A stretch of DNA of 64,000 bases from Bryoerythrophyllum caledonicum (lineage: Eukaryota > Streptophyta > Bryopsida > Pottiales > Pottiaceae), in assembly GCA_963971425.1 (NCBI GenBank), contig OZ020523.1:11962867-12026866 (forward strand), read 5' to 3'. The position numbers and the translations under genes were made by a program. The notes under the pieces were generated by a model, which saw only the letters and a list, made by a program, of their open reading frames with translations, ran no database searches and was not told the origin of the DNA. Shown here in pieces: positions 10,142-34,084 of this stretch. How positions within the stretch are numbered: position 1 is the first letter of the stretch; each line of letters starts with the position of its first letter.

Positions 10142-10283
10142 CTGCCACAAACATTAAAAAAATGCGATTCAATAGGCACTAAACATAACGAACGTCATGA
10201 AAGAATCTCTTTCAGTTTCTAGAGATGGCCACACCACATGAAATAACTGATGCAATTATCATATCCCTTTAAACCGAAATGAG

Positions 10284-10370
10284 CAGGGTTGTCTATCGTG
10301 ACATTGTGACAGTGATGTGTCGTCATGATGTGACATGTCGTGACGGATCCTCTCGTCACAATACAATAGA
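10284..10370 (+). repeat. Left terminal inverted and subterminal repeats of the giant hAT element
   Basis: CAGGGTTGTCTATCGTGAC begins the element. It is followed by GTGACA/TGTGACA words (about six in 60 bp), the same words found in inverse order at 33970-34066. In hAT elements, short subterminal motifs bind transposase; that role is inferred here. Confidence 0.75.
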
Positions 10371-10541
10371 GTCAACCTAGGGTCAAAGATGAACTTTACC
10401 CCTATGTATGGTACATAAGTTACCTCGGCGTCGACGTAGCTGTCCTATGTGGCAGTGACATCCTACGTGTATTTCACCACTTTTACCTTGTGTTGTGTAG
10501 TATTAACCTTTGAGTGAAAATCAATTTAATGGGGGGATTTT

Positions 10542-11440
10542 GGGAGGAGCGGTTTAGGAGCGGACTGCACGCGGACATGCGATGACCGTCCCGGGACATG
10601 GCGCGGACTACGTGCGGACACTGCCTCGGACTGGCTGTGGATACGAAGCGGATTAACTTGGACCCGCGAACTGAGTGCAGACCCGCAGACTAGCTGCGGA
10701 TACGTCGCGGAATGAACTTGGTCTCGCGGACTGAGTGCGGACATGCGGACTGGCTGCGGATATGCAACGGACTGGATGTGGACCTGCGGATTGAGTGCAA
10801 ACACGCGGACTGGCTGCGGACGCTACTACGGACTGGCTACGGACACTGTCGCAGACTGGCTGCGGATACGTAGCGGATTGGATGTGGACCCACGGACTAG
10901 CTACGGATACGCAGCGGACTGGATAGGAACCCGCGGGCTGGCTGCGGATTGATCGCGGACTGGCCGCGGACACTACCGCGGACTGGCTGCGGATACGCAG
11001 CGGACAGGATGGGACCCGCGGACCGATCGCTAACTCGCTGCGGACCGATCGCGGACTGGCTGCGGACACTGCCGCGGATACGTAGCGGACTGGATGTAGA
11101 CCCGCGGACTGGCTGAGGATACGCAGCGGACTGGATGGGGACCCGCGGATTGAGTGCAGACTCGTGGACTAGCTGCGGACGTTGCTGCAGACTAGTCGCG
11201 GATAGTACCGCGGACTGGCTGTGGATACGTAGCGGACTGGATGTGGACTCGCGGACTGGATGTGGACTCGCGGACTGGCTGCAGATACGTATTGGACTGG
11301 ATGTGGACCCGCGGTTTGAGTGCAGACCCGCGGACTGGCTGCGGATACACCGCAGACTGGCTGCGGACACTTCTGCGAACTGATCGCAGACACTGTCGCG
11401 GACTGGCTGCGAACTGATCGCGGACTCGCCGCGGACTCGC
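10542..11440. repeat. Distal GC-rich array of CGGACTGG/GCGGATAC motifs
   Basis: About 900 bp built of GCGGACTGGCTGCGGATACG, GCGGACTGGATGTGGACC and variants, with a loose higher-order period of ~40-45 bp. Dozens of GCGGAC cores are present. It sits ~260 bp inside the left terminus with no gene downstream. It therefore resembles an enlarged subterminal array, built of the same motif as the five promoter arrays. Long open frames on both strands here are repeat artefacts. Confidence 0.85.
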
Positions 11441-11746
11441 ATCCGCCTAGGTGTGGGGGCGCCAATGCAACGCGGATTGGGAGTGGGGGAGCGCGGATAG
11501 GTAGTTAGGATATTTTTGAATTTCGTTATTCCATTTTTATTTCTGAAGATACAAAGGGCGGGATTGGGAGACCAAATCAAAACGATTTGTACAAAGTTGT
11601 TCTTCATTCAAAATTACAAAGAAGTCCAAAAAGACATTCTCTTCTTACAAATAACCGAATACAAGTTAGACAACATTTCACATCATAGAGAAGATGCTAC
11701 ATACCCTACAGTATCTAAGGACTATGAAATCACAATATACTATATA

Positions 11747-13694
11747 CTACTCATTGCGGAAGAAATCCCATGGTGTAACTAGGTTGTAGGGCAGTCCTTT
11801 CAACAAGTCTACTACATGCGTGACGGTTGATCTCTCTAGTGGATCGGGTTTCAACAACTCGTCCATGGCTTGCTCAAATCGCTTGGACAATGAACTCGGA
11901 TCTTTGTTCTTTTGGAACAAGCTTGAAGAGCAATCGCGGTTGTAAATCCTCCTTGCCAAGTATCCCACCGCATACGCCTCAGATCTATGGTTGTGCTTAT
12001 GCTTTATTTCCATTCTCCTCGGTGATGTTGGCGTTCCGGGCTTCCCATACACATGGAATAGCTCTGGGGCAGCATGACGATACTTAACTCGGTAAGCGCC
12101 TATCTCCGTACTAGCAGGTCGGCCGTAGTTTGATATCTTGTCTTCGCCGTCCCATGATGCCATTCCCCAATCACACACCCTGATGTATGCAACATCTTTT
12201 TTTTCTGGCGGAAAATAAAACATAACATTGTTGGAGCTCAAGTCGTTGTGCAATAGACGTTGGGAATGTATCACATCCATGATGCACATTAGTGCCCATG
12301 CTAAATAGGCCCGATTTTTACAATACACATAGTTCCATACGAGCCTCAAGGTCGATTCCAGGTGTTTTTAGAATATCATCCTCGTGTTCCCCGTCATATT
12401 ATGAATCGATCCTCCAAATGGATGCTAGTGAGCCACCGTTCCACCAAAGAGTATACGACTCGTATGTTCTTCTATCCACGTACTGAATTTTGATAACCCC
12501 TGCATGGTCCACTGGACACACTAACGCCTCAATTGAACGTTTCTCCCGATTTTTTTCACGACTACCCTCCTTTAATGTTTCCCCGCAAAGTCCATGTGTA
12601 CTGGAATGAAACTTACACCCTCAATACTCACACGGCGGACAACTCCAAAGCCTCCTTCATAATTTCTAGTATCCAATGCCTTTACCTCCACATGCATTGG
12701 AAGCCACACTACACCTTTGCGACCTCTACTCGCAACCCGCGCAACCAAATCTTGATCAATTCGAGGAATAGGGAGGGTAGATCTCCTTTTTGGCTTGATT
12801 GCTTCTACCCCATCTTTGAGTCTCTCAAACAATACCTTCACATCCATTGCCTGTTCGCTTACATCTTCCTTATAATAGACATCCCAAATAATCTTCACGG
12901 GGTTGTAAACAACTTGTTTGGCAAACAATATGGGCCATGTGTCCATTGAATGCCTCATTTTAACTTCGCAAAATTCTTCTTCATTGGCAATCTTTTGGAT
13001 AATGAGTACCAATCTTGCCTCCATAGCTTCTAGCCATGTAGCGTCGTTACACAAGTACCGTTTCTCCAACCTCGATAGACCTTTCTCTATCATCTAATAT
13101 AATATATCTGCTACAACCCTGGCCTTAAATTCCTTGCTCATTGCATCCAAATGGCTTGTCCTTGTTCTTTTCTTGTAGGGCTCTGAGTCTTCAAAAAAAG
13201 CTGGCTGTTTATCCCGCCCTCCTCCCGCTCCAACTGAAGGTTCGCTTGGACCAAAGAACTTGTTGTAGATGGTACCGCACCATGTTGAACGGCCCTCAAC
13301 GATGGCTCTCCTGCTGCGGGCTCACCACTTGATCCGCCTGAACTGCGAGCTCCCGGGTTTCGAAATCCACTCAAACTTTGTGATCCTCGTGACCACCCAG
13401 CTTCACTGGTCCCCCGCGCTGATCCTTGTAGAACCCCTCGAGATCCTACTGTGCCTCGTGAATTGATTGCGATCCACGAGAATTATTTCGTCCAAGTGCA
13501 TGAAATTTTTGGTGCAGTTGTTCCATGCCGTGCCTGCGACCCCTGTCACTTCGCCCACTTCCACTACCTTGTCCTCTTGCCAACATACCACCGCTCACAC
13601 CGTCGACTGCAACAGTGGTTGATTGAATTTCCACCTGATAAGCCTCCTGGAGTTGTCTGTCTGCATCTTGATAATGCACCCTCCTATCGGCCAT
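11747..13694 (-). pseudogene. Protein kinase cargo gene of the giant hAT element (broken)
   Basis: The start is chosen at ATG 13694 (MADRRVHYQ), ~210 bp downstream of a TATA box. The N-terminal Ser/Gly/Gln-rich region (13694-13138) is followed by a helical region (13093-12660). Then comes a Gly-rich loop (NYEGGFGVVRRVSIEGV, near 12640). Between 12570 and 12350 a shifted frame gives a hinge-like LWWNGGSLASIW with a stop. The frame 12349-11747 has the catalytic loop HNDLSSNNVMF, a DWG in place of DFG (VCDWGMA), APELF and the C-lobe. At least two shifts and two stops break it. All main kinase motifs are present, so it was once a full kinase. Its substrate is unknown. It is the last gene of the element. 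Confidence 0.75.
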
Positions 13695-13902
13695 TTTTGT
13701 AAAATAATTAACCGGGCACTTAAAGTGTAGTGCGAAAGTGAGTGAGTCTAGAAAAAATGACAAGGGTTCCCCCCGCATTCGTCTCTCCCAACTCCTATAC
13801 CCTCAAAACCCGTGCAATGGTGCTCGCACAACAAAGTCTCGGGTTCCTATTGGGCAAGGAAATGGAGGGAAAAAAATGAGGACGTCAATGGCCTATCTGC
13901 CT

Positions 13903-14085
13903 TTATATAGGCTGCAAGGGATCGGGAACATTGTGGATAGGGTTGGGAACCTGGAGAACGGCGCGGTCGGGGATTGGACTGGTCGCGGACTGCCCGCGGA
14001 CTTGCCCGTGGATTACCTACAGACTGGCAGCGGACTCGCCCCCACAGACCGCGGACTGTCCGCGGCCTGTCCGCTGAATGGGCGT
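13903..14085 (-). promoter_or_regulatory. TATA box and CCGCGGAC array upstream of the kinase gene
   Basis: The minus strand reads CTATATAAAGG at about 13903-13911. An array of GCGGACTG/CCGCGGAC motifs occupies 13966-14085, about 57 bp upstream of the TATA. Transcription toward lower coordinates would reach the kinase start at 13694. It has the same layout as the four other genes of the element. Confidence 0.6.
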
Positions 14086-14393
14086 CGTTTTTCTCCTTTG
14101 AATTCCTCTTTCCAATTGCCGTTGTTGTAGAGATGGGGGTTGGGGGAGACAACAAGGTTGCCGTGTAACTACAAGTTTTGGCAATGTGAGAACGGGAATG
14201 TCCAAATTTGCTTTGAACCTTGATATAAATGCATTCAAAATGGGCAAAAAATATCGCGTTGTGTACAACTCACTGTGAATTCTATGTTTGTAATGTCAAA
14301 GATAAGAACATAAGAGCTTTGGTTACACTAATTCAAGCAGGAAATTAGACCTGGACATAGTTTACTGAATTTTTAATCCTTTACTTCCGCAAA

Positions 14394-15206
14394 TTAACCC
14401 TTAAAGGACCAAGGCAATTTTTCCTCAAAAACACTCGAAACTGCCATTTTCAGCACATTCGATACAAAATGATACAAAATCATTTTTTTGATAATTTAAC
14501 CATAGGGTCTTGTACTAGACTTATATGAGAGTGTGGTAAAATTTTTGGTAAGTTTGACCGCACCAATTGAAAGATATTAGCCTTTGAAGTGCGACAAAAT
14601 CTTTTTTTCATGTCATACTATACACCTTCAACAAACTTCGACCACCTTCTATGGCAACTTTTTGCACTACGGGCCATGAATTTATTGTGTTAATTTGAAA
14701 AGGATCATGTTAGGCACATGAGCACCAAGTTTTAGGAGTAGAAGAGGTGTAGAAGATGTCCTAAAAAATCCTGCAATGCAACTATGTGCCGAGAATCAAC
14801 AATACACTTTATATTTTGCATATATCATATCCTTCTCAAAATTTTGAAATTCACAAATCCGTACGATAGATGCAAAGATCTCAATTTCCTTTCCAAGAAG
14901 ACATTTTCTTTCTTTTAAATGGACAAAAACTCGAATTTCTATTGAATTTAGAAGTTATTAATGTTTGGTGACAGTATTTGTGATATGTCACACTAAATTG
15001 CTGCACTATTTGTATATGTAAGTGAAAATAAATTGTAACTTTTGAACCGTAAGTTGGAATTCTACAAAATTTGTGTCTATGCAAAGCTAATCAAAAGTTG
15101 TCTGTTCAATAAAAAATCTTAGAAAATAATGCCTAGAATTGAGAACGTGGTACCTCACCCAAACTCAAATTGTCCCCCGAGGGGACATTGGTCCTTTAGG
15201 GGTTAA
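14394..15206. mobile_element. piggyBac-like MITE, 805 bp, TTAA target
   Basis: TTAA at 14394-14397 and 15203-15206 flank inverted ends CCCTTAAAGGACCAA and TTGGTCCTTTAGGGG. Target TTAA with CCC...GGG ends is the piggyBac signature. The interior is AT-rich and noncoding, so it is non-autonomous. It was inserted just downstream of RING gene C. A related end lies at 3715 and a possible relative at 39098-39668. Confidence 0.8.
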
Positions 15207-15215
15207 TGTGGTGCT

Positions 15216-17447
15216 CTAAGCTCTTGCAGCGTCTTTTGCACGAACATTACTCCGCGTTCGATATCCATGACGTCCATGACCTTGCCGATATCGAGGTATC
15301 TCCCCACCATTAAGCCATTCCTTCACCTCTTGGGCGACGTCTTCCAAAATGGCATCGAGCGCCGCCACCAGTAGTCGTTTTTGATGGTAGCGTTCTTCCC
15401 AATATAATTCCTCCGTTCCAGTTGTTGCATCTAGTATTGTATCATGATAAGCCCTTCGTAGTTGTAGATCCCGCACTGCTCGCTCGCCAGATGAGTTGTA
15501 ATATGGTGGCGGTCCTAAGCCGTGCACCAATTCGTTTCATTGACGATTCCAATGCCACCCTAGGGTCTGGTTAAAAAACATCTTCATGCCGTAATCTGCC
15601 GGTTTGTCAGGATACATCTCATTTGCTGCATGTACTAGTTTGTCCGGATCATCTAACAATTCTTCCCCTTGAAAGGTATGCCATTGTTGTGCCTTTGACA
15701 TATTATGTCTCCAACTCCACTCAACAGGGTTCCCATTGAAGTTTTCAAGTGCAAAGTCATAATCATCTTGACGATACACCCAGTGACTTGGCATGATATC
15801 CCGTAGGCCAAATTGAAGATACAAACGTGGATGTAATGGCGCCCTTCATACACCGCAAGTACGCAAACGAATCATACTCTTGACTAGACAATGCGGATGG
15901 AACGAATGGCCACAAGATCCAATCATATAACACCCTTCAGGACCCCAAGGATTATCGCAGATAGGACATGATGATCCGTCGGATGTCATGGGGTGTGGTC
16001 TTTGCCACAACAGCTTTCCAATCATTTCAGTTGGATAATCATGCACTTCTCCAATGTCCCAACAGTGATCCTCTTCTGTCACAAGCCTCCAATCAATATT
16101 GTTGTTGTTCAATAGTAGCGGCGGATCACTATCGTCCCAGCTGATTGGATACATGGTTTCATCACGAGGCCATGATGTGAGCAAAAGGGTCCTTAATTTC
16201 TTCTCCGATGTCCATTCAGCGCATATACTCTAGAATTCCGCCTCGTATTGCCGTGTCCATACCACAGAAAATACCGTTGTGAGCATCATCTCTTCGCGCT
16301 CATCGATTATTTTTGAAACCAATAATTTAAGATTATTTCGGGCCGATTCTTTGTTCTCCCAATATGCTTTTAATTCATCCAACTCTTGCTGCAAACCTGC
16401 ATGCGTCATCTCCGCTACTACATGTTGTGCCTTGATTTCTTGTAGCTCCCTCTTTAAGTCTGCAACTTCAATCATGTAATTTTCATTGCTATTGTTGACT
16501 TGATTGAGTTGATTGCGTAGATGGGTCACTTCAGCAAGCGAGTTCTTCTTCTCTGTCTCTAGCGCACATACTTTTGACACCGTTTCCACATCATTGTCTC
16601 GTCCATGTTGCAACCTTTTTATTTCCACACTAAGCACTTCCAATTGTGCCTATAACTCACCATACTTATCTTCATCAAACTTCATCAGGGCGTCACCGGC
16701 TTTCCTTTGAATAGCATTGGCCATCTCCATAGTTGTTGAAAGTGGGTTTGACCCCTCCCCAATCTTGTTTGGGGCATGCTTGTCCAATTCTTTGCAATGT
16801 GTGGCCTCAACCTTCCTTTCTCTAGGCTTTCGACCGCTACTCTTCCTTGGTGAAACAATTTCTCGATTGAATGGCATTTCATCATTTGGATCGTCGTACA
16901 AGGTAGGGTTCTCAAGGAACCATTGAGGGGCATTGTTTCTTGGAATCTCTCGAGGTTTCTTTGCTGAAAGATGGTGTCCAAGTCTCCGACCGCTTGAAAA
17001 GGGGTCGTGAATCGTTGACCAATCCACTTGCTTTCCTAATTGATATTCTGCATACATCAATGCTCCAATGGATCTAGGAATATTATTTTGCGGCCATTTC
17101 TCCAAATTAGAAAGGGCACGTAGGATCTTGAGGAACCTCTACTTTACATGCACGTCATTGATCTGTCTGTACGTGGCTGCTTTCGCTGCACAATGTTTAG
17201 GGTGGAGCTCCGCAGGCCACCATCTGCCGAGATGTGCATACTTGATGTACTCCAATGCATTGTCGGTTGTCCATGGCTCACGCACTGATTCTCAACCCTC
17301 CTTTGCTTGAAGATCATAGTTTGTTTATACCTCGAGCTCCAAATCTGCGGAATTCCTCTTTGTCCTTTTCACTGGAAAATCCTCCTCGCTTGGTTTATCC
17401 ACCATCATCCTCCGTGCTCCTTGAACGCCACCTCCGCTTTCCATCAT
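15216..17447 (-). pseudogene. RING/coiled-coil cargo gene, copy C (diverged, broken)
   Basis: The start is placed at the ATG pair near 17447 (MMESGGG, then a basic KRTKRNSADLELEV stretch as in copy A). Recognisable blocks in order: DWSTI near 17020; a basic linker; a coiled coil (16643-16230); LLTSWPRDETMYPISWDDSD (16184 on); a RING-type zinc finger CPICDNPWGPEGCYMIGSCG then HSFHPHC (about 15970-15880). The LYLQFGLRD and GWHW-HGLG blocks follow down to 15216. The last CxxC pair is broken because the final Cys codon is TGA. Stops and shifts split it into about five frames. It is homologous to copy A along its length. It was probably an E3-ligase-like or structural protein; the function is unknown. 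Confidence 0.7.
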
Positions 17448-17790
17448 GTAATTCTTCTAAAGTCTTCTACAGATTTCCGAATCACAAAAGTTACTTACAA
17501 TAATATATATTTACTTTTCCACATTATCTATTATCATACAAGAATTCTAGAACAACTGCTCTATTCCAAAGATTGGAAGACTACATGCACTGCAAAATAG
17601 TGTTGCCTTGGCTACAAATTAAAGCATGCACTTCAAAATATTGTTGCCATGCTTGGGTAGAGTGCTAAAACCCCACCGTTGGCATAACCATCGCCTATAA
17701 TAGTGAAAAATCAGATGCTTCTGAGGACAAATATCTTCCCTTGGGAAGATGAAGGTCCTCCAAAGGAGTACTTTCCCCCTTGGAAGCCCC

Positions 17791-17826
17791 GCACACCACC
17801 GTCAACGTGGAGGCAAGTGCGTCAAG
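17791..17826 (-). promoter_or_regulatory. Conserved 36-bp leader box, copy C
   Basis: GCACACCACCGTCAACGTGG plus AGGCAAGTGCGTCAAG (plus strand). It is shared with copies B (21442-21477) and A (30078-30113) at about 32 of 36 positions. It lies between the TATA-like box and the start codon, so it is in the 5' leader on the minus strand. Its role is unknown; it could be an upstream regulatory or splice element. Confidence 0.5.
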
Positions 17827-17872
17827 GCTTTCTAGGACTAAGATAGTGTCAAGCCATGGGGACCCCTTCCAC

Positions 17873-18097
17873 TTTCTATAACATATGTACCTCGTCCGCA
17901 CCCTGTCAGCGGACTGCCCGCATCCAGCCCTCGTCCCGTCCGTGGGCTGTCCGCTCCCAGTCCGATCCCCATCCGCTCCTAGTTTGTCTAAACCATCCGC
18001 TCCCAGTTCGCGCCCAGTCCGCAAACTGTCCTCGCTCAGTCCGCAACCCATCAGCGCGCCCAGTCCGAGCCCACTAACCCCTAGTCCGCGCGCCCAG
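17873..18097 (-). promoter_or_regulatory. TATA-like box and GTCCGC array upstream of RING gene C
   Basis: On the minus strand TTATAGAAAG (17873-17882) is a weak TATA. CAGTCCGC/GTCCGCTCCC motifs fill 17887-18097 directly upstream. The layout is the same as in copies A and B. Confidence 0.55.
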
Positions 18098-18213
18098 TCC
18101 AATAGTCTTCAAGGGAATAAATACATAAAAAAAAACTAAAAAAAAAGGCGGATAATGAATACAAGAAAGTAAGCCTTTAAAACAATACTTGCACATCAAA
18201 TTTCCTTTTTTAT

Positions 18214-20213
18214 ATGGTTGTGTGCTGTAGAGTGGTTTTTCACCACTCTAATAAAACACCCAAGTGTATCCACACCTCATAGGATTCGTTACGGGGATGA
18301 TCATACGCCTAGTTTTAAGTAATTGGAGATTAATTGTATCGTTAAAGCTATCTTTTTGGTTAATTCTTAAGGTTATCTATCTATTTTTAGGAAATTAGGG
18401 TTGTTAGCATCACTCTTAAGGGATCCACAAACAAAGTCTAAACCCCAAGGATCTCTCGTGCCTTAAGACGGAACATTAGTCCTTTTAAGATTGTGCTTAT
18501 GCCACTAATCCTTAAACACTTGCCACACTGGGCTAATGGAAGTTTCCATTAAGTCTCATTGCATTGGTTCTTTAATTACAATCTTTAAGAATTCAAATTC
18601 TTACCTCATGCAAAAACGCTCCACTTTTCACGTCCGTCCACTCGGTCCACGTGATCACGTTTTTAAGACAATGGTTAGTCTCAAAAATCCCATACACAAG
18701 TTAACTTAAGTCTTAAAGAGTTCACCTCTTAAGTCTCCACTTAAGTTCACTTACCCACAATTATCCCTTAAAGACCACGGTCTTCCACACTTACTCGTAC
18801 CACTTAGTCTTTAAGATGTCTGAATTTTACTTAAGACTTCTCTCTCGGTCGGGTCCATGTTCTTAAGAACACAGTTTCTGTCCTTGAGTTCTTAAGCACT
18901 CACTTTCTCACTTAGGACTGATTCTTAAGAACCTGCATTGTCTAGACCAATTCGGTCCTACAATGTTCTTAAGTTTCTGTCTTTAAGACTTCCAGAACCG
19001 GGAATGCATCTCACTGAATGCAAATGTTGTCCCGTATTCTCACTCATACGAACCTTTAAGTCCAAGCCCTTAAACTTAAGGATCTCATGGTACTTAAGGT
19101 CTCACTCTTCATAAGCTTATGTATCCAAACTTGGACTTAAGATTCTTAAGTTTCTATGTTTTCTTCTTAAGTCTTTCTTTGGGATTTGTTCCTTATTTTC
19201 TCTCTTATGATAGATTCTTAAATACTCACAACTTAGCCTGCCTTAGAGAATCCCTTCTATTAAGGTTAGACTTAATGCTAATTTTTTGTATGCATAATAT
19301 GACACTCTTGCCATGCATCAAGGTATGCCACTCTTGATGTTTATTGTATAAATTGCATTAACATGAATAAGAACTCCACTCTTATTCTTATGATACTCAA
19401 GTTATGCTCACTCACACTTGAGATCTTATTAAGTACTTATGCATCACACATCTCATGCACTAAGTCACTTAATTTCACATTATCTCCATTAATCTTCACA
19501 CTCATGATTAATGCTCCAACATACACACACACAAGGTCACACCCACGACCTTAGTAGTTAGGGTATTTCCCTATCTTATTCCATGAAGAATAAATATACA
19601 ATGCATTCATGCATAAGAATTTTATCCGCAATTAATACCTAATGCATGCAATTGCATTTACAACACACAATGTCAAATTTATTCAATAAAGTTCACATAT
19701 TATTGCAATTGTACATATGACTCAAGTCACACACAAGACTCTACACATGCAAATTCAATAACAATTATATATTCATATATAAAATTAAATACTCTTACAA
19801 CATTAAGAGTCATCAACTAGCTCTTTCACCTAAAGCTAGGGCTCACTCCAATCTTCCTCCAAGAAATTTCTATGGTGATGGCCAAGAATACTAAAAATTC
19901 AAGCTAGTCATTCTACTCAACATCCAAGAGGTACAACTCTTGGAAAGAGGTTTTCCCTAGTATTAACCATTAAGATTAATTCCACTAAATCTTCACATCT
20001 CTTCATATCCATTCATGAAAAGATACACCCTACCCAAAGGGTGTGAGTTCAACCCTTTTCCCATTATTTCCTACTTCTTGGATATGAATAGGTACTTTCC
20101 AATTAATTAAGTACTTAGTGTAAACTTAATCATTAATTTTTTAATTCTCCATATATCTACAACCCTTTTTACACTTAATTTTCGGAAAAAATCTATTTTT
20201 GTAATTTTGGCTC
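18214..20213. mobile_element. CTTAAG-rich ~2-kb repeat, copy 1
   Basis: An AT-rich segment packed with CTTAAG/TCTTAAG words and with no coding frame. It interrupts duplicate B: the sequence before 18213 and after 20214 is adjacent in copy A near 27380. A diverged copy in reverse orientation lies at about 39990-41230. Shared landmarks include AAAACACCCAAG, GTTGTTAGCATCACTCTTAAG, CCTTGATGCATG and ACTCCAATCTTC. It also contains the hairpin ACACCCTACCCAAAGGGTGT near 20025. The class is unknown; it could be a non-autonomous LTR or other element. Borders are to within ~10 bp. Confidence 0.6.
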
Positions 20214-20491
20214 TACATGTGCTCTAGAAGAACTTAGAAGGTTTTTTGAAGAACACGTAGAGAGGGTTGGAAAATGTGCCTCCTGTAGATGGAAGTTCTC
20301 TATATTTGTTTTCTCAAAATCAAGTAGAAATTTGTACACATGTACACAACATCATTCTTTTCTACTAAATATTTAATTGATTTTGTGACTCTAGGCACCT
20401 AAACTATTTGATATCGGCCTCATGAAACACATACGGCGAATTAGTACGCACTATTTACATTCCATATCCGGAGCGCGACAAGGAGGCACCT

Positions 20492-21127
20492 TCACCTCCT
20501 TCGATTACGGAGCTTTGGTTTTGCTTGATCCGCTGGCAACTCTTCGTTAGGTGGGTCAACCAAAGTACTGTCGCCCATAAACCACTCCGGCACAAGATTT
20601 CTAGGAATCGATAGCACATGTAGCTTTGAAGAAAGTGCTTCGCCTAGATGCACGCCAAGGTTACCAATAGTGTACAAAGGTTGATCAAACGTCGATCAAT
20701 CAACCTGCTTGTCCAACTGACATTCGGCGTATATCATTGCTCTAATTCTTCTCGGAATGTTATTTGATCAATAACGTGTTTCGTGGGAGATGGCTCGTAA
20801 AACCTCTAAACACCTCCATTTTATCTCAATGGAATTAATATTCAAATACGTCAATTGCTTTGATCGGCAATGGTCCTCGTGTGCTTCTGGAGTATACCAT
20901 CAGTCGAGGTGAGCAAAACCAATGTGTTCATACGCCTATTGACAAGTCTATGGCTCCGATAAATCCTCCTGGCATCCTCTATATGCCAAAAGATTAAGGT
21001 CCCCGTAAATATCTAGCTCCAAATCTGCAGCCTTCTCGGCTCTTTTTGAAGGACCCGCGCCCAAATGTGGCATATTTAAATTCCTCCTCCCTCCACCATC
21101 TCCACCACCTCCACCACCGCTATGCAT
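20492..21127 (-). pseudogene. RING/coiled-coil cargo gene, copy B (internally deleted)
   Basis: The start ATG at 21127 begins MHSGGGGGGDGGGRRNLNMP, aligned with copy A (MATMHGDGGGGGGRRNLNAP). The N-terminal block (ELDIYGDLNLLAY, YEHIGFAHLD, WYTPE-H-D-C) follows with stops. The frame from 20677 to 20492 (MYTIGNLGVHLGEALSSKLH...PADQAKPKLRNRRR) ends abruptly. It joins directly to the 3' flank that in copy A follows the stop codon. The coiled coil, RING and C-terminal blocks are missing, so this is a ~1.5-kb internal deletion derivative. Confidence 0.7.
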
Positions 21128-21441
21128 GGTGAAAATGTTTTAAACAAACCTAAACCAGTACGAAATACTTCTAATTGCTATTCTAATACTAGCTAACTAT
21201 TCTAATATGATTATGCCGCCTATAACTAATTGCACTTCAAAATAGTGCTACAATAAATCCCATGCAAGCACTTCAAAATAGTGTTGTTGAGAGATTGTTA
21301 AAAAGTATTAAATACACGGCTTCGTCAATTCTCTGACAACTTCAACAGCTTCTGTACCTGTTCTGATGCTTGTGAGGACTAAAAATTCCCCTTTCAGGTA
21401 ATCTCCGTCCTCAAGAGAACCACTTTCCTACCTGAAAATCG

Positions 21442-21735
21442 TGCACACCGCCGTCAACGTGGAGGCAAGTGCGTCAGGCTGCCCAGGATTCGTGGAAAAG
21501 TGTGTCTACAAAATTTCCTCCCTCCCCCTTTATAGCACTCTGTCCGACCATGTCCACCCATGTCCGTGGCCGTAGGAACGCAACTGTCCGCGGGCAGTCC
21601 GCGTCTCCTCCGCACGTTGTCTGCGGGCAGTCCCGCGTCTCGTCCGCGCCCTGTCCACGGGCAGTCCGCGATCAGTTCGCGACCAGTCCGACGCAGATTC
21701 GGCGTCCACTCAAATACTTGTCCGCACGCCTCTAA
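21442..21735 (-). promoter_or_regulatory. Leader box, TATA box and GTCCGC array upstream of RING gene B
   Basis: The 36-bp leader box is at 21442-21477. Minus-strand GCTATAAAGGGG lies at 21525-21536. GTCCGCGGGCAGTCCGC-type motifs fill 21541-21735, about 7 bp upstream of the TATA. The array is cut off from its upstream DNA by the pogo-like insertion at 21757. Confidence 0.6.
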
Positions 21736-23804: not shown

Positions 23805-24501
23805 ATTAGCTTGAGTTTTTGGGTGTGACAAATATGCATTTGTGTGTTGCAATTTGAGCTTTTGATTAGAAATTGGACGTTCAAAATGTTTTTTGAGTTA
23901 AGCACTAAAAGATTGAATTGTAAATTATGAGTTGTAAACTTGGAGTGAAAAAGTTGTAAAGTTGGAGTTGTGAGCTTGGAGGTTGGCATACAAAGTTGGA
24001 GTTGCAAAATTGCATATTCGAGTTGTGGAGATTGAAATTACAAGTTTTGAGGTGAGATTGCAAGTTTTGAGATTGTAATTGCAAATTGAGTTTGTGGGTG
24101 TGTGAATTTGAGATTGTAATTGCAAGTTGAGTTTGTGGGTGTGTAAAATTTGCATTTGTGTGTTGCAATTTGTGCTTATCCAAAATAAGATTGAAACTCT
24201 TGATTAAAAATTTGACATTCATAACATTTTTTAAATTCCATGTTAAAATGCAAAAAATCTAAAACTTAATTAATTTTTTTCTATTCTATTCTGTTACATT
24301 ATAAAAATTCATACATAGGTTTCAAAGATATATATATATTTTATGTAGATTGTTGTTATCTTTCTTTTTTATATTTTGTGATATTAAGACTAAATTAAAA
24401 TGGTTGAACTAATGCGTTGCAAAGCAAGCGCCAACTACTAGTCCTGTTCTAAAAATATAACATAAATTGTTAAAAAATTTGTGTTGTCATCCATGTTTTT
24501 T

Positions 24502-24826
24502 TTAGCATGGCATTGTATACCTAGATTTTCCGGGTTTAGAAAGTGCCTGTACTGAGATACCAAGTGTTTTGATGTATTCCTTTTTTTTAAAAACCTCTTC
24601 AGAAATGTCCCCTGAGCGCGTCTTCTCCATGACGGGTATAGCCCTTGATATTATATCTCTTCTTGAAATTTTGCACGCATCGATGAGAAAATAGAAGCTC
24701 CTTCTTGTTGGCACCTCTTAGAAGTAATGCGCAAAATCTCTTTGCAGCAGCCACCACAAGGTCATCAAATAGAACTACATTATTTTCCTGCATTGTCGTA
24801 AACCAAGTAAAAGTGGCTTCCTCCAC
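24502..24826 (-). pseudogene. CENP-B/Tc5-type HTH fragment of the pogo-like transposase
   Basis: FTWFTTMQENNVVLFDDLVV and then AAAKRFCALL...FSHRCVQNFKKRYNI fit the second (Tc5) half of the CENP-B-like DNA-binding domain of pogo-group transposases, including the KKRYNI signature. A frame ends at 24502. No DDE core is visible in the remaining element, part of which was lost or replaced by the MITE and foldback region. Confidence 0.6.
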
Positions 24827-25268
24827 TTCAGGGCATTGAGACTCTTGTAAGCGCTTGGAATCATCGAGGTGCCCAACATCAAGTCAACTGAAGTGTTCTT
24901 TTTGCTCTATTGTTCTTCCAATATTAATCTCAGTCACGTTTACTTGAAAGTGTGCATTGGCCCACGCAGTTAATGCTCTATTGGTAATCTTTCCACCAGT
25001 AGCTAATAGTCTCACGATACTGAATAATCTCTTGTTTATGTATAACACTTAACACATAACACTTACTAGTCTTAATTTGAAGGGATCGGAAATCTCCATA
25101 ACACATATAGAGTGTTAACACTTATCAAGGTAACCCTTATCGAGGTCTGACTGTACTAGGTACCTTATCGTGTGTTACAATGTCTAGAAATAAAAATAAA
25201 ACATATGGTAAACATACAGAAAGGGTATAAAATAACACTTAAAAGTAAGAGTATTTTAGGAAACATAT

Positions 25269-25957
25269 GGAAAGCATAATTACCATGCATCTGTCATACT
25301 CAAAGATGCCACTGTAATGCAAAATTCAAACCGGACCTACTATGTGTTAGAGGACTTTCATACAAAGACCCCCCACCAAACCACATAGACCCTAGTCTTA
25401 CCATCCAATTTATTGAATTCACATATTGCAATGATAGATTCTCTCCGGACACTATTGCAAACAAAACAACTAAATACCAACCACTACTTAACGATATTCA
25501 AGCACTAGGATGGAAAGTAGACCCCCTCATTGTCATCACCGCGGGTGCTAGAGCCACCACCTTCATTCCCTGAATGACAACCCTGGAAGATACATTTAAA
25601 ATCCCCATCACTTCAATCAAAACCACTTTTTCTAACATTAACATTATTGCAATTCAACATGCTATGTCGATACTCCTACATAAACGTAAACTTGAAAACA
25701 ACCAACCCTTACCCGACGCTTCGAACCCCCCTTTATAGATCTACACCCGCATTTGCATTTTCACCGCACTCGCCCTCCTTCTTATACTGGTTACTTGTTA
25801 CTGGGTACATAGTGTCCACCCTCGAAAGGGGGAAGTAGTTTCATACTGCTAACCCATGCCCGGTGGGCATGGACCTAGTGGTGGAATGAACGGACACTTC
25901 ACTCACGCCGGCCTCCTCCAGGGACTGGCGTTCTTCTTCTTCTTCTGGAAAGCATAA
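25269..25957 (+). mobile_element. 5'-truncated LINE copy, 667 bp, with 11-bp target duplication
   Basis: It matches the LINE 3' region (58330-59290): the C-terminal coding remnant (DPLIVITAGAR, TFKIP, IAIQHAMSILLHKRK) and the 3' UTR phrases TGTCCACCCTCGAAAGGGGG and GGTGGAATGAACGGACACTT. It ends in (TTC)n. GGAAAGCATAA flanks it at 25269-25279 and 25947-25957. Copy A near 30515-30530 is the empty site. TGA replaces a Ser codon within the remnant. Confidence 0.9.
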
Positions 25958-25979
25958 AGAATGGATATCAATATAATTA

Positions 25980-27290
25980 TTTACCTGGGTTTAGGGTTTA
26001 GGGTTCAAGTTTTGGATTCATACAGAAGTATATTTCAAGACCTTACGATTGAGAATCCAAAATTTCACTTCAAATATGATTTTAATGCCTCTTTATGGGA
26101 GTGGTTGATTGAACTAGTCTTTGAGTGAATTTGGCCGTGGTCCCTTCGAGCCTTTTCCCATCGTCCCATGTGATAACCAACCCAACCAAATTCGTGTAGC
26201 TTTTCCTCCATATGAATATAGAGCATACCAAATTTAGGCCCTCCCATGACTCCTTCTAGCATTCTATTCGAGAAATCACAAAATCAATTTGCAACAGTCA
26301 AACCGTTTATGAGACTAGAAAGTGAATAATCAGCCACCCAATATGGCAAGAACTAAAGCCCACCGACACAATATCATTTTGGTTTTGAGTTAATAAGATG
26401 GGAGCTACATTTATTTTGCGGGCCTTCCTCGTTGACTTGTGAAGCCTGTCCAATACTCAAATACCCGTCAGAGTGTAAAGCGGGTTGGGGAATTATTTTG
26501 GTCATGGGAGTGATCCGCCCTTGTCAAAGATAGCAGGACGGGCCACGAAAGGGATCTCGCCTTTAGGGGTAATAGATCCCAATTAAATTGGAAGGAGAAT
26601 GAACATGGAACGAAGGACCAAGGGATAATAATGAATAATATTTGAATAAAATTAGAAGGGGAGGGAATGGAAGAGGGTTAATCGCAGATGACTATCTAAA
26701 CTAAATTAGAATGAGAGGGAGGAGGAGATTTATCACTAAAGCATTCAATTAAAATAGAATGAGAGGGAACCAAAGGAACAAGGTTCTCATTTCAAAAAAA
26801 ATTAATTTCTTCTCATTTTGGTTTAATGAAGGTCTTCATTTGCAACGATACATTTTCAGGTGTGTCATTTCCAACATCGAAAATCAATTATTGTCTATAC
26901 AAAAGAAGAGCAATTTATGTAAAGTCATGGAAATAGGAAAAATGGCACACATTGTTAACCAAAGAATTAGTAGAAGGGTTTCATTTCTTGAAAATGGTAA
27001 ATCTGAATTCGTAATTTGCCAGCCCTCCACTGCTTCCACAAATTTATGAGATATGCGTTGCCTTTTCTTTACCTCGTCTAATTCGTTACAACACCTTGGA
27101 AATGATGATAATGATGTTACATAGAAAAGTCTTACTTGAATGTTAAACATACTACCTAAGTTATAGGGAAAGGAATCCAAGCCGAACAAAGATAAAGAAA
27201 AAATGATGAAATATTCGAAGAATTGTCTACAATAAACAAAAAATATTATCTTTATTGGAATTATTTTACATCCATTTCAAGTCTTACCTT
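25980..27290. other. No recognisable gene
   Basis: Between the duplicates. The short frame 26065-26262 (minus) and the overlapping frames at 26759-27189 match nothing I know. 26560-26790 has AGGGAGG-rich purine DNA. Some of this may be additional cargo or intergenic DNA of the giant element. Confidence 0.3.
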
Positions 27291-27635
27291 CCAGGATTTT
27301 TTTAAAATAATAAGCAGATAAATAATACAAGAAAATATGATTTTGTTGTGCAACTTGCACATCAATATTCTTTTTTTACAAATGTCTACTCCAAAAGAAA
27401 TTAGAACGTTTCTAGAAGAACATGTAGCGAGAATTGGAAAATGTGCTTCCGGTAGATGGAAGTTTTCTAAATTTGTTTTCTCAAAATCAAGAAGGAATTT
27501 GTACACATGTACATTACATCTCTCTTTTCCACTAAATATATAATAGATTATGCGATTCTAGGAACCTAAACGATTCGATATCTGCCTCAAGAAAAAATAC
27601 GCTGAATTAGTACGCACTATTTATCTTCGATACCC

Positions 27636-29770
27636 TTAGCGCGGCGAGGAGGCACCATCATTACGGCACGTTTGAGGTCTACAAGAAGCTCGCGGCACCT
27701 CTGTTTCCAGTCTCTGTCTATTTCGTAGACCATCGAGGATAGCCTTGACTTCTGGGGAAACATCGTTCAAGATAAAGTCAAGGGCCAAACTATATAGCCG
27801 GGGTTGATGATACGTTCTTTCCGCAACCAAGTCCACCATTGCATTGCGTAGCTTTGAGACTTCTTCCACCTCGCGATATAGCCGCCTGAATTCCGCACAA
27901 GTGAGCGCCAGCTCTCCGGATGAGTTGTAATGTGGTGCAAGCCCAAGGCCATGCAATATTGTATGTGTCTCACGATCAAAATGCCACCCCATTACATTGT
28001 AGAAAAACATCTTCAGATCGTAAGCTGGTGGTTGGTTAGGAAACAATCCCTTCGCCGCCCGCATTATGTTCGTTGGATCTTTTAAGGTGCCATATGCCTC
28101 GTTTGCTGCAACCAGCTCTGCTTGTGATACGTTGAATCTCCAATTTCATTTAACGGGTTTCCCTTCATCAGTGCCCACGTCAAAATTTAGAAAGTATTCT
28201 TGACGATACTCCCAATGTGTCCGCATGAGATCTCTCAAGCCAAATTGCAAATATAGACGGGCATGATACGGCGAATGACAGATGATGCATGGGCGACTTT
28301 GGATCATATGCTCAATGAGACATTGTGGATGGAATGAATGTCCACATGCTCCGAGCGTATAACACCCTTCCGGGCCCCATGGATATTGACAAATGGGACA
28401 AGTTTGACCCTTTGTGGTCATTGTCCCCACATTTGCCCATATTTTATGTTGCCCATCTCTACCCTTCTCATGGATATCAAAACGGTGATATTCTTCTTGA
28501 ATGCGCGCCCAATCGATGCTACCATTGGCAGTAGTCACTTCTGGGTCCATGTCATCCCATTCACTTGGATACATTTTTCCCAACGTCGGCCAAGATGTAA
28601 GTAAGAAGGCTCTCAGCTTGTGGTTGGATGTCCACTCTTCAACAATCTTTGTTATCTCAGCCTCACATTGTCTCGCCTGTGATGCCGCCAACACCGTGCC
28701 CAACATCATGGTTTCCCGTTCGGTGTGGAATTGGAGTATGTCGTTGTGCATTGCAGAAATACTTGCTTCATATTTCGTATTACAATTGCGGGCTTCTTCT
28801 AATTCAATCCGCAATTGGGCCATGCCAGCAACCATCTCGTTCTTCTCCGCTTCCAAGCATTCTGTTCTTAGAGCTGCTTCTTTCGCACGTTCTTCTGCTT
28901 CAACCTTGTACGCATGATACTCCTCGCGTAACTGATCGTGTTGTTGCGCCTTCACATGTCCGATATTAAGATCCCCCAATCTCGGACTACATTGATTCCA
29001 TATCTTCTCAACGATTGGTAGATCCACGTCTTGTTGAACGAGGGCGACCTCCGGAGAATGTTGAACGAGGGCCACATTCTGAAGGCCTTGTTGGGATCCA
29101 CCATCATGAGGCGCTTCACGAACCGGCACATGATTATCTCTATTTCTTCGATTTTGGGGCTTTGGTATCGCTCGATCCGCTGGCAACTGTTGGCCAAGTG
29201 GATCAACCAAACTATTCTTTTTGCTAAACCACTTCGACACGGAATTTCTAAGAATTGATAGAATAGGCAACCTCGATGTAGGTGCGTCGCCTAAATGCTT
29301 CCAAACATTGTCAGGGAGGTCCAAAGCTTGATTAAGCGTCGACCAATCAACCCGCTTGTCCAACACACACTCCGCGTATACCATCGCAACTATTCTTCTA
29401 GGAATGGTATTCTTCGGCCAATGTGTTTCGTGGAAGATGGCTCATAAAATCTCCAAAAATCTCCAAAAATCTCTACGGAAGTAATGTTGGCATACGTCAA
29501 TTGCTTTGTTTGGCAACGATCCTTGTGAACTTCCGGAGTATACCATCGATCGAGGTGAGCAAAACCAATGTGCTCATACGCCTGCTGACATGTCCATGGC
29601 TCCGGTAGACTTTCCCATCCGAAGTATGCTAAGAGATTAAGGTCTCCGTAAATATCTAGCTCCATATCCGCAGCCTTCTTGGCTCTTTTTTTAGGACCCG
29701 CGCCCAAATCTGGCGCATTTAAATTCCTCCTCCCTCCACCACCTCCACCATCGCCATGCATGGTTGCCAT
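27636..29770 (-). pseudogene. RING/coiled-coil cargo gene, copy A
   Basis: Start ATG 29770, then a Gly run and basic motif (GPKKRAKKAADMELDIYGDLNLL), and a conserved block ending YEHIGFAHLDRWYTPEVHKD. A shift near 29450, within a GGAGATTTTT duplication, is followed by the frame 29384-28146. That frame has AECVLDKRVDWSTL, a basic linker, a coiled coil (about 28960-28640) and TSWPTLGKMYPSEWDDMDPE. A RING-type finger follows: CPIC-QYPWGPEGCYTLGACGHSFHPQCLIEHM-CIICH (about 28410-28270), with all eight ligand positions present. LYLQFGLRD comes next. One TGA (aligned with Trp in copy C) separates the frame 28064-27636. The C-terminal block has GWHFDRETHT and HGLGLAPHYNSSGE. It needs one frame correction and one stop change to be complete. 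I know no family with this order. Confidence 0.75.
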
Positions 29771-30077
29771 GCTTTAAACAACCCTAATCCACTACAAAAT
29801 ACTTCTAATTGCTATTCTAATACTAGCTAACTATTCTAATATGATTATGCCGCCTATAACTAATTGCACTTCAAAATAGTGCTACAATAAATCCCATGCA
29901 AGCACTTCAAAATAGTGCTGATGAGAGATTGTTAAAAATTATCACATACACGGCTTCTTCAAATCTCTGACAACTTCAATAGCTTCTGTACTTGTGTTGA
30001 TGCTTTTGAGGACTAAAAATTCCCCTTTCGAGTAATCTCCGTCCTCAAAAGGACCACATTTCCACCCTGAAAACCTC

Positions 30078-30417
30078 GCACACTGCCGTCAACGTGGAGG
30101 CAACTGCGTCAGGGCATCCAGGATTTGCGGGAAGGTGTGCAAAAAATATTTCCTCCCTCCCCTTTTATATCCCCCTGTCCGCTCTTGTCCGCCCTTGTCC
30201 GCCCTTGTCCGCCCATGTCCGCGGCCATAGGGTCGCACCTGTCCGTGTCATATCCACGTCTCGTCCGTGTCCTGCCCGTGCCTCGTCCGCGCCCTATCCG
30301 CGGGAAGTCCGCTCCCTCTCTGTGGGCAGTCCGCTCCATGTCCGCGGGCATTCCGCAACCTGTCGGTGCCAGTTCGATGCAATATCAGCGGGCACTTCAC
30401 TCCATGTCCGCGAACTC
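30078..30417 (-). promoter_or_regulatory. Leader box, TATA box and GTCCGC array upstream of RING gene A
   Basis: The leader box is at 30078-30113. Minus-strand GGATATAAAAGGGG lies at 30158-30171. GTCCGCGGGCA/TTGTCCGCCC motifs fill 30175-30417, a few bp upstream of the TATA. It is the clearest of the five promoter modules. Confidence 0.65.
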
Positions 30418-30589
30418 CTAAATATTTTTTGCATTCCGTTTACTGGGTACCTTATTGTGCGAGATGAATGTCTTGAAATAAAAATGACATTAAAAAGTAA
30501 GAGTATATTATGAAACATATGGAAAACATACACAAAGAATATCAATTGACCCCGTAGTATGCATAATGGGAAATTTAATAGACATCCAC

Positions 30590-33468
30590 TCAAGATCGCA
30601 CTCGAACTGTTGGGTCATTCTCTTCTATGCACCGTGGATCCACATCAGATTCATCCGTGCTCTCTTCATTGTCGGACTGCGGAGTAGCACTTCTCAATTG
30701 CAAGTTGTCATCTCGACCAATAACCAACCTCCTTGTTGGACGAGAGCCGTCGATGTCACGTATTCCATTGTCATCCATATTGGATCTTCCGTCAGATGGG
30801 TCATAAGCTTCACCGACAAATGGCATTAGTATTCCTTGATATCTTCGACGTCTCTTCCTCCCTCGTGTAGTCCTTCGTCGACCACTAGTACTTGTGGTGC
30901 TTGTAGAAGCCTCCCCGCAATGTGGAAGCGTTGTACCTACATCAACAATTGCGTTGATGTCTACATCTATGGATGAAACTATCCTCTTCCACTTGTTACA
31001 AGCACCCTTCCACCCCTGCGTACAGAACGTCCTCGCTCACTTGCTGAAGTGAGAGGTTGCCTTCGAACGGTTGGACTATGAACATTATTCGACCAAATGG
31101 ATTGCCGATGATTTTGTCCTTGTCCAATGTTTGGGCGATTGTTTTGAAGTGCTACCAATGAAGCACCGACCCCCCGTGTGGTCGCTTCACCGAATCTCCC
31201 CGCAACTACATGACTACAAGTGATCGGCCGATTTTGTATTCCAACTTGGGGAGGTACATCAACCTCCGTGGTTGACACATTGACTACAATGTCTTCAATA
31301 GGCGTGGATAACCCTTGAACATTTGAAGTCGTAATACATGGCGGATTGGAATTGCCATTGCAAACCACCCTCGATGGCACAAGAGACGTATCACCCGCCG
31401 GTGTAGTGGCCTCCTCATCCCTGTAATCCGGGATATGTTGCCTTTCCCCACCAAATGATAACGAATCACTTTCACGCTGGGATGGTAGGTCAACGTTTGC
31501 GTGGATGGCCTGGTGGTGAACGCCCCCTTCCTGTTCACGCCGGAGTCCTTGTCCTGCACAAAGTTGTCCAAATGACGGCCTATCATCATCCCCGCAAAGG
31601 TTAGATGGCAGTTGAACATGTTGTGGTTCTTTGCCTTTCGTAAACTTAAAAACACCAATATCTCTAGTTCTACGATCACCATCAAAGTAAAGACCGTCAT
31701 AATCCGAACTGTTATCCCTATCACGGTGACCCTCACCACCGTCACCATCTGAATCTTCATTGTCCGAATAAAAAGTACTAGCGTCCATGTCAAAATCACC
31801 AAGTCCATCATGATCGACATGATAGCCATCATCATTTGCATCATCAGAATTGTCTCCATTGCTTTCATCATCGGAATGCACGCCGTTCAACTCAAGCCAC
31901 TAAGCAATCCTCGTTCCTCTTCGATGCCTAAGGAGCCTAGAATTGGTGTAAATGTAAACGAGGTCCTCCGCCCGACTATGTTGTAGGCGATTGCGGGATT
32001 TGTAGTGAACGTAAGAGTACATGCTCCAATTGCGTTCGCATGCCGAAGCAGAACATACTTGAGCAAGGATGCGTCTTGCTATAATCTGCAATTGCTTTGC
32101 CCACCTCCCATGGCATCCTACTATTCATGGGGCGGTACATTCAAGACATTTGGTTGTATGGAATTTGCAAATGTCCCTCTGTTCTCAATGAAATCTTGGT
32201 ACTGATTGAGGACCAAACCTAGATCATCCTCCTTCGTAACTAGGTTCCGAAGAACAACATTCAAGATTGGTCTTGCAAGCTCGTGCTCGTGCAACGGGGC
32301 CCATCCACGCAAAGAAGGATTCAACATAGCCCCTGCCCAATGAAGGTCAGTAATCATGAGCCTCCACCTTGCGTTGAAGGCATCTAATGCCCTTGTTGCC
32401 AAATCTTGTTCCAAGCAGAACGGGGCATCGCGGAATCCTTGAACATGGATCCCCAATTCATGCATGACCTTCCATGCATGACACATAGCGGGAGCATTGC
32501 CGTCAAACACACGAAGAGCATGTACCACCAGCAACACCATGTACTCAAAATTCACACAAACGTCCCAAAATCCATCCGAGCGTGTAACACATCGTGCATA
32601 AAGGCCTTTTGCATGTGCTCTTGGTTTTTGAGTCCGCAATCCCACTAGAAAAGCATGCCATTCTTCATCAACCACCATTTGCTCCAATGCTCGGCGAACT
32701 TCGAGGAGGCGTTGTATTGTGAGAAAGTTTGTTGCAAACCGTGTTTCATTGGGCAAACGAATAGAAAGATCAGGTGATAACCTTCGAAAGATTGCTTGTG
32801 GGGCATGGTGGATCTTGATGAATAAACAAACAACCCTTGCCTTCTTAACAATCCTTTGTACCCACGCTTCTTTGCCCCAATCTTCCAGTAAAAGATCCAA
32901 GCAATGGGCAGCGCACCCTTGAACATAGAGATGTGGAATTTCTTCCATAATGTCATGACATGCGGCCGCCATGACCGGAGCATTGTCCGTGCATACTTGG
33001 ACAACATTTGCATGTCCAACCATTTGCAAAAACGGTCGGGCTTGACGTAGCTCTCGAGGTTCCCTATCTAAGTGTACGAATTCCACGCCACGACTTGTTT
33101 GGGAGTTCTGAATCTGCTCCACGTCGTCCTCCACGGATTGTGTCAACAAATGTTCCACTCCAATCCCATTCTCGTCATCGACACGTTGTTTGGAGCAGGG
33201 TACATCGTTAGCAGCATCAGGACAATTAGAAAATAATCCCATCACAACCTTGAAATAATACACGCACATGTGGAGGCACTGTCCTACACAGTTGGACGTC
33301 ACGACCTAGATTACTAGGATGATGGTACCCCATGTGCGACAACATCCTGTCAGCTCTGTAAACCGTGGAGTGAGAACAAAATCGACACTTCACTTATCGT
33401 GTTGCTCTTGAAGGAGCGTTGCCCATGTCTTCGTACCATAGATCCCATACAGAATTCCGACGCGGCAT
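30590..33468 (-). pseudogene. hAT transposase of the giant element (defective)
   Basis: The start is taken at ATG 33468 (MPRRNSVWDLWYEDMG). A BED zinc finger follows: VKCRFCSHSTVYRADRMLSH with HMGYHH, interrupted by TAA at 33396-33394. The frame 33302-32121 holds a DUF659-like region with NVVQVCTDNAPVMAAA (second catalytic Asp), GCAAHCLDLLLED and ETRFATNFLTIQRLL. The segment with the first catalytic Asp (DGWT-type) seems deleted between about 33240 and 33060. After a shift, 32140-31900 is the hATC dimerisation domain: ILAQVCSASACERNWSMYSY with NRLQHSRAEDLVY. A long acidic tail (31890-30590, one shift) follows. Plant-type hAT; not functional as read. Confidence 0.85.
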
Positions 33469-33611
33469 GGCGACGCACGGAATTCAGAGTCAACTAGGGG
33501 TCAACAATTTCCTCCTCAACAATGGGATTTCGAGCAATGCATTTTTGTATAAAGAATCCAAGGTCTTCAAAGCCACTATGCAGGATTAAGCACCATCACC
33601 TTGGAACAACA

Positions 33612-33815
33612 CTATTTTATACTGAAATTCAAATGGAGCAGGCGTGGTTGGGGCGCGGTTGCAGCGGACGTAGCCGCGGACAGCCCCGGACAACCCACGG
33701 ACTACAGGCGACACTAGTTCGGACTGGCCGCGGACTGAGCACGGAATGGCCGCGGAATGGCCGCGAACAGCCTTCGATAACGGAGTGAGGCGCGGATTGG
33801 CACGGACACTCCTTC
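33612..33815 (-). promoter_or_regulatory. TATA box and CCGCGGAC array upstream of the transposase
   Basis: Minus-strand AGTATAAAATAG lies at 33612-33623. GCGGACGTAGCCGCGGACAG and similar motifs fill 33654-33815, ~30 bp upstream of the TATA and ~250 bp inside the right terminus. It is both promoter-proximal and subterminal, as expected if transposase binds it. Confidence 0.6.
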
Positions 33816-33969
33816 AACCCATGCTGAAAATTACTGCGACATGAATTTACCGCAGTTGATGACATGTCTGCACATGTGGCATGCAGATTCCTTTCTAAAC
33901 CCAACGTGTCTCTCTCGAGGTAAATGTGAAAATTGTGTTTTTTGCCGTCAAAATGGCCCCATCACAGTA

Positions 33970-34066
33970 AAGTCATGATCTGTCACAATGTCATGCCGTC
34001 ATTGTGTCGTGACATCGTGACATTGTGACGGAAATTGTCCCCGTCACGACACAATAGACAACCCTG
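33970..34066 (-). repeat. Right terminal inverted and subterminal repeats of the giant hAT element
   Basis: Read on the minus strand it begins CAGGGTTGTCTATTGTG and continues with GTCACGAC/GTGACG words. It mirrors the left end and ends immediately before the GATATGAG duplication and the host intron. Confidence 0.75.
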
Positions 34067-34084
34067 GATATGAGAGACACACAC

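Follow-up and report, generated by a model that had tools for sequence, protein, structure and literature searches.

Transposons of the hAT superfamily, such as Ac and Tol2, are usually a few kb long and carry the transposase as their sole gene. VANDAL transposases belong to the MULE superfamily, and Starships are characterized by a tyrosine recombinase and variable cargo. VANDAL elements are described with VANC proteins that bind dense, same-orientation arrays of short motifs in non-coding DNA (PMC5735166), ToxhAT/ToxTA as a 14-kb non-autonomous fungal element placed in Tc1/Mariner, with a TA duplication and as a passenger of a Starship (PMC12506042), and Starships as giant fungal transposons with many genes (PMC11623301). 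Here we analyse a 64,000-nucleotide stretch of the moss Bryoerythrophyllum caledonicum (hereafter the window; C11:11962867-12026866 within the 437-Mb genome), which holds a decayed copy of a giant hAT transposon. Its family combines a hAT transposase with two genes for RING-like, coiled-coil-type proteins (R1 and R3) and a protein-kinase gene.

Insertion into the intron of a plant gene

The element is delimited by inverted ends, whose 13-mer has no further exact match inside the window, and by short direct flanks:

10276..10283, left target-site duplication, GAAATGAG, equal to 34067..34074 at 7 of 8 positions
10284..10296, plus strand, left terminal inverted repeat, CAGGGTTGTCTAT, perfect over 13 bp
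34054..34066, minus strand, right terminal inverted repeat, perfect over 13 bp
34067..34074, right target-site duplication, GATATGAG, equal to the left copy at 7 of 8 positions

The motif GTGAC/GTCAC occurs six times in the left 200 bp and five times in the right 200 bp, counts that were equalled in 1 and 0 of 500 shuffles, respectively. When the element and one flank copy are deleted in silico, a 152-bp GT..AG intron is restored, and the two exons beside it form a single open frame encoding one protein, which we take to resemble an Arabidopsis glycine-rich protein. A search with this protein recovered a close paralogue on each of C15 and C8, the exon matches being separated by 154 and 151 bp, respectively. 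Across the 480 bp of the joined site, each paralogue gives a single unbroken alignment (87.9% over 494 columns for C15, 86.4% over 492 columns for C8), so that each represents a paralogous empty site for the insertion in the window. The element is thus inserted into the 152-bp intron of a plant gene. Perfect inverted ends, 8-bp flanks equal at seven positions, subterminal GTGAC repeats, host exons on each side and a hAT identity had been proposed in an earlier note made from the sequence of the window, and all of them hold, the last through the DUF659 and Dimer_Tnp_hAT domains of the transposase together with the ends and duplications.

About 1 kb outside the element, at 9295-9307 on the plus strand and near a 200-N gap (9651-9850), lies a 12/13 match to the hAT end, possibly another end of this kind.

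A family of giant elements with a common gene set

Exact copies of the end 13-mer occur 392 times genome-wide (183 + 209 on the two strands), compared with 1 + 0 for a reversed-pattern control. Lists of 143 and 135 places each supplied their first 100 entries as end positions, so that analyses of end linkage cover C1-C11; these comprise 98 right and 99 left ends, which form 52 nearest pairs less than 100 kb apart. Among 31 end pairs, the window and 30 others, 23 are flanked by 8/8 duplications and five, including the window, by 7/8 duplications, while flanks mispaired as a control reached 6/8 in 3 of 380 cases and never more. Outside these counts, a short pair of 1.6 kb (C1:4619034) has seven flank letters available on one side, all of them matching. 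Twenty elements of at least 16 kb, again counting the window, have a 7/8 or 8/8 duplication, and the longest measures 48 kb. A listed R1 gene lies inside 23 of the 52 exact-end pairs, including all 12 of the pairs that measure 18.0-20.2 kb. Ten pairs were taken whole, and their gene content was determined by tblastn (>40 bits):

E1-E4, transposase, R1, R3 and kinase, with R3 inverted
E6, transposase, R1, an R2-like piece (R2 being a truncated R1 paralogue) and kinase; no match to R3
E8, transposase and R1
E9, transposase and kinase
E5, E7 and E10, none of the window genes matched

These results confirm that the element belongs to a family of giant, approximately 19-kb hAT transposons. The 8-bp duplication, short terminal inverted repeats (TIRs) and transposase domains that mark the superfamily are all present, and insertion by hAT-type integration is shown by the duplications and the empty sites. 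Mobility of the whole unit is strongly supported by the many full-length end pairs. The transposase would then cut and paste the entire unit, the empty sites themselves supporting past insertion only.

Matches to the four genes are numerous, with at least 101 for R1, 69 for the kinase, 107 for the transposase and 73 for R3, several of them with full-length open frames. For counting, with the window copy included, we kept 95 of 101, 68 of 69, 105 of 107 and 62 of 73 of these, respectively, the others being extra pieces of listed copies. Clusters with three or more of these genes number 29, the window's included, and 11 of them hold all four. The order is right end, transposase, R1, R3, kinase, left end, and it is constant in 29 of 29 clusters if C11:19132056 and C7:5226139 are each read as two neighbouring elements; at C14:13396473 the kinase is on the opposite strand. 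Both exact ends, among those listed, enclose the genes in at least 12 of the 29.

The genes are also anchored to the ends. On C1-C11, 35 of 72 R1 matches have an exact, inward-facing right end within 20 kb upstream (random mean 0.22, maximum 4, in 2,000 trials), and for 31 of 47 kinase matches an exact left end follows downstream (random mean 0.15, at most 2), at a distance of 0.79-1.47 kb in 27 of the 31. Of the 42 copies in which an exact end is present, 39 have their transposase match 1.43-1.87 kb away from the right end. Downstream of the 105 transposase matches and on the same strand, a listed R1 follows in 69, a kinase in 32 and both in 24; conversely, a listed transposase lies upstream of 70 of the 95 R1 and 32 of the 68 kinase matches. 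A listed R1 is found within 25 kb of 28 of the 68 kinase matches, on the same strand in 26, and of the 62 R3 matches 32 lie near a kinase on the same strand and six near one on the opposite strand. The earlier view that this is a cargo-bearing giant hAT element and not a random cluster is supported by this recurrence of R1, R3 and kinase with the transposase in one order. Its proposed search for further copies with the same ends and 8-bp duplications returned many, and the pattern that would have told against it, RING and kinase genes lying always outside hAT ends, was checked: the genes recur between the ends.

The family comprises at least two lineages, A (with the window and E6 among its copies) and B, in which R3 is inverted. 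Relatives were also found in other public data, comprising 12 R1-like, 47 kinase and 69 transposase proteins. A kinase (P0016, 74%) and a transposase (P0062, 75%) each come from a 15,563-bp ENA contig, and a RING-like protein (P0007) and a kinase (P0040) each come from a 476,656-bp contig; both pairs are consistent with linkage elsewhere and are no proof of it.

Several copies are worth recording in their own right. E5, E7 and E10 (L018-L020, L023, L027-L028) have the same ends and share about 9 kb with one another, without homology to the window genes; E5 (27.5 kb) is enlarged by long open reading frames (ORFs) of Helitron-like look. On C7 (5226139-5242383; L037/L038), a lineage-A copy has inserted into the terminal repeat of a lineage-B copy, and its duplication, GGGTTGTC, corresponds to bases 3-10 of that repeat. 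Another family element (C11:11928206-11941643) is found about 31 kb away from the window copy; it is 13.4 kb long, has an 8/8 duplication and contains an R1 gene. At C3:22803123-22810245, two R1 copies with equal search scores lie 5.8 kb apart on one strand and adjoin a right end. C5 and C13 (87 and 68 kb) gave no match in any search.

Genes of the window copy and their proteins

All genes of the window element lie on the minus strand:

11750..13694, minus strand, protein-kinase gene, decayed, with a Pkinase match; open relatives have 651-657 codons
15219..17444, minus strand, RING/coiled-coil gene R3, decayed, 82.6% to P0003
about 20513..21088, minus strand, R2, truncated R1 paralogue without RING match, matching the N-terminal part of R1 only
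24441..24883, minus strand, Tc5-type helix-turn-helix (HTH) transposase fragment between R1 and R2, with a relative also in E8
27639..29773, minus strand, RING/coiled-coil gene R1, interrupted; open relative P0013, 715 aa
about 30593..33468, minus strand, hAT transposase gene, broken, with DUF659, the hAT dimerisation domain and an acidic stretch in its C-terminal tail; the E6 alignment gives the approximate 5' end

R1 is interrupted by one frameshift and one stop, R3 by seven stops and the kinase by several frame changes and stops, and the transposase is split across frames. Because these four genes are interrupted, the window element is a decayed member of its family. Of the three RING/coiled-coil genes initially read here, two stand as RING-type genes (R1 and R3), and the third, R2, is the RING-less paralogue, a type seen in two lineage-A copies, the window and E6. 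The common strand of all original genes likewise applies to lineage A; with R3 inverted in lineage B, it is no family-defining trait. The earlier note would put the element at about 17 kb before later insertions; 12 of the 52 exact-end pairs on C1-C11 span 18.0-20.2 kb, and the parts of the window copy that E6, E8 and E9 leave uncovered take in R3 itself.

An open relative of the transposase in L036 has 1,101 codons and matches DUF659 at 121 bits and Dimer_Tnp_hAT at 42.2 bits, with a tail of about 450 residues beyond the dimerisation region. A separate acidic ORF was considered and rejected, as this open copy places it in the C-terminal tail. At the N-terminus, a C-x2-C...H pattern is visible by eye only, without a Pfam BED match. 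R1 and R3 contain a RING-like motif together with a match of coiled-coil type or a predicted long helix (R1 structure model, pLDDT 54). Seven zinc ligands (C462, C465, C480, H485, C488, C499 and C502) are invariant among 13 RING relatives. An open relative of the kinase exceeds the Pkinase cut-off (37.7 vs 31.7 bits); among 20 relatives K374 is invariant, and HND487 and DWG511-513 are at least 90% conserved. The best structural matches of the kinase model (pLDDT 65) are kinases (E 1.6e-7, TM about 0.5 at most). A search of PDB sequences with the kinase gave no match, NCBIfam profiles gave weak matches only, far below cut-off, and a scan of viral contigs with P0003 found no relative. Since the key residues are conserved, R1 and R3 are likely to be ubiquitin ligases and the kinase is likely to be active.

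Elsewhere in the window, LINE-like frames with reverse transcriptase lie at 53516-54241 and 55936-57933 on the plus strand, with RNase H in one frame that also has a PCIF1_WW match (38.3 vs a cut-off of 31.1 bits). At 49876-51495 on the minus strand, an open frame of 540 residues contains a DDE_1 transposase domain (52 vs a cut-off of 22 bits).

Short-motif arrays

The element holds 64 of the 79 window occurrences of GTCCGC/GCGGAC. Clusters of at least four occur at the left end and upstream of the kinase, R3, R2 and R1, with a spacing of mostly 11 and 22 bp; the arrays of the window copy, including one of a different unit, are:

10560..11436, left subterminal array, 31 GCGGAC in one orientation
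13976..14074, 11-bp repeat array upstream of the kinase
17884..18089, 11-bp repeat array upstream of R3
21586..21725, repeat array upstream of R2
30172..30411, repeat array upstream of R1, 10 GTCCGC
33720..33765, short 11-bp repeat by the right end, upstream of the transposase, unit CGGAATGGCCG, not GTCCGC

GTCCGC clusters are found at each end of E6, E8 and E9; they also lie upstream of R1, R2 and the kinase in E6, and upstream of R1 or the kinase in E8 and E9. The gene-less E7 has them near its ends only. The promoter design that the earlier note saw as shared by the genes is therefore real in lineage A, where arrays lie upstream of the genes. In lineage B, E1 and E2 show one GTCCGC cluster each, upstream of R1. 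E1 has other words at 11-bp spacing (GCGGAT, TCCGCT and ATCCGC, with 3-5 repeats each, seen in this one copy and unmapped in position), so that divergence of arrays together with the proteins in lineage B is only hinted at. The arrays would fit a single binding protein encoded by the element.

Probable selection on the cargo and alternative explanations

We compared single pairs of copies by the Nei-Gojobori method for the kinase, R1 and the transposase. Between lineages A and B, with open copies in each pair, dN/dS is 0.24 for the kinase (0.23 with a second B copy), 0.26 for R1 and 0.31 for the transposase, the latter divided into 0.23 for the first 650 codons and 0.44 for the tail. Within lineages, it is 0.98 for the kinase and 0.78 for the transposase, at a dS of about 0.02, with a stop in one copy of each pair. 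As the kinase and R1 values resemble that of the transposase core, the cargo was probably under selection during spread. While lineages persist, constraint on the cargo appears to be about equal to that on the core, and copies drift after landing; the low within-lineage dS points to a fairly recent amplification of the family. A need of the element for its cargo is supported by these comparisons. We regard a giant multi-gene hAT family with cargo kept for the element's own sake as a very probable explanation. Its conserved set beside the transposase consists of two paralogous coiled-coil/RING-like proteins (R1 and R3) and a kinase, each encoded by a single open frame.

A number of observations weigh against this explanation, in addition to the single GTCCGC clusters of E1 and E2. 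Three of the 31 end pairs lack a convincing duplication (6/8, 3/8 and 2/8; E4 is the 6/8 case). On C1-C11, 37 of 72 R1 and 16 of 47 kinase matches have no exact end nearby. A listed R1 is missing downstream of 36 of 105 transposase matches and within 25 kb of 40 of 68 kinase matches, and 25 of 95 R1 matches have no listed transposase within 12 kb upstream. Only part of the first-look candidates were scored (68 of 2292 for the kinase, the window's own being missed), so that linkage is partial; these fractions are kept low because the match lists are incomplete and copies are internally deleted. The dN/dS values come from single pairs at high dS (0.6-1.3), with R3 left out. One histidine of the RING-H2 pattern varies among relatives, and the RING score falls just below the Pfam cut-off (25.8 vs 27.3 bits). 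Finally, the equal contig sizes of P0016 and P0062, and of P0007 and P0040, do not prove that the proteins of each pair share a contig.

The cargo genes could instead be passengers, captured from the host by chance and copied without use. The four broken genes of the window, the frequent occurrence of copies that share the ends but have internal deletions or lack genes, and the within-lineage dN/dS of 0.78-0.98 would all suit such a history. It leaves unexplained why kinase and R1 values between lineages (0.23-0.26) are as low as that of the transposase core, and why gene set and order are common to lineages whose proteins differ by about 25-50%, which makes it improbable. We hold it equally improbable that, as in Starships, the RING and kinase genes help the plant and the element is their vehicle: the unit is large and several cargo frames are full-length, but the same gene set recurs in place of variable cargo, copies decay after insertion, and no tyrosine recombinase was present among 25 Pfam-scanned proteins, a subset of the ORFs. 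Chance nesting or stacking of independent mobile elements between two hAT ends, for which the nesting of an A element in a B terminal repeat on C7 and the Helitron-like ORFs of E5 offer precedents, is scarcely credible given the constant gene order of 29 clusters and the narrow distances of the kinase from the left end (27 of 31) and of the transposase from the right end (39 of 42).

If the cargo is retained for the element itself, the kinase and, in the capacity of ubiquitin ligases, the RING proteins may act on its behalf, a role that we put forward tentatively. They would most likely keep the element expressed or unsilenced, or tune the transposase, perhaps via the short-motif arrays at the ends and promoters. 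More speculative, and rather doubtful at present, is an element-encoded ubiquitin-and-phosphorylation module independent of VANDAL/VANC, in which array-bound proteins would counter silencing or set transposase dosage, and arrays and proteins would diverge together between lineage A (GTCCGC-type) and lineage B (other words).

Comparison with known systems

We found no earlier description of a cargo-bearing hAT of this kind in the open-access literature searched. If two RING-type genes and a kinase have been retained in a hAT family through long divergence, a cut-and-paste element of this class can reach about 19 kb with selected accessory genes, which has implications for how large a transposing hAT can be. 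Two questions thereby become testable: do transposons of plants turn ubiquitination and phosphorylation against control by the host, and do motif arrays evolve together with the proteins of an element in families other than VANDALs?

By the features tested, the family is supported as a giant, multi-gene member of the hAT superfamily. It resembles other hAT elements in its 8-bp duplication, its short TIRs beginning CAGGG, its DUF659 and dimerisation domains and its subterminal repeats; it differs from them in its size (about 19 kb against a few kb), its three further conserved genes and its transposase tail of about 450 residues. To Starships it is similar as a giant multi-gene element, whereas Starships have neither hAT ends nor an 8-bp duplication; no tyrosine recombinase captain was detected in the scan mentioned above, which covered part of the ORFs. 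ToxhAT/ToxTA is likewise a large TIR element with an extra gene, but it is not a hAT. With VANDAL/VANC, the family has in common an accessory gene set and dense, same-orientation arrays in non-coding DNA (in lineage A, with orientation counted in the window), whereas its transposase is not of the VANDAL type: Pfam finds hAT domains only.

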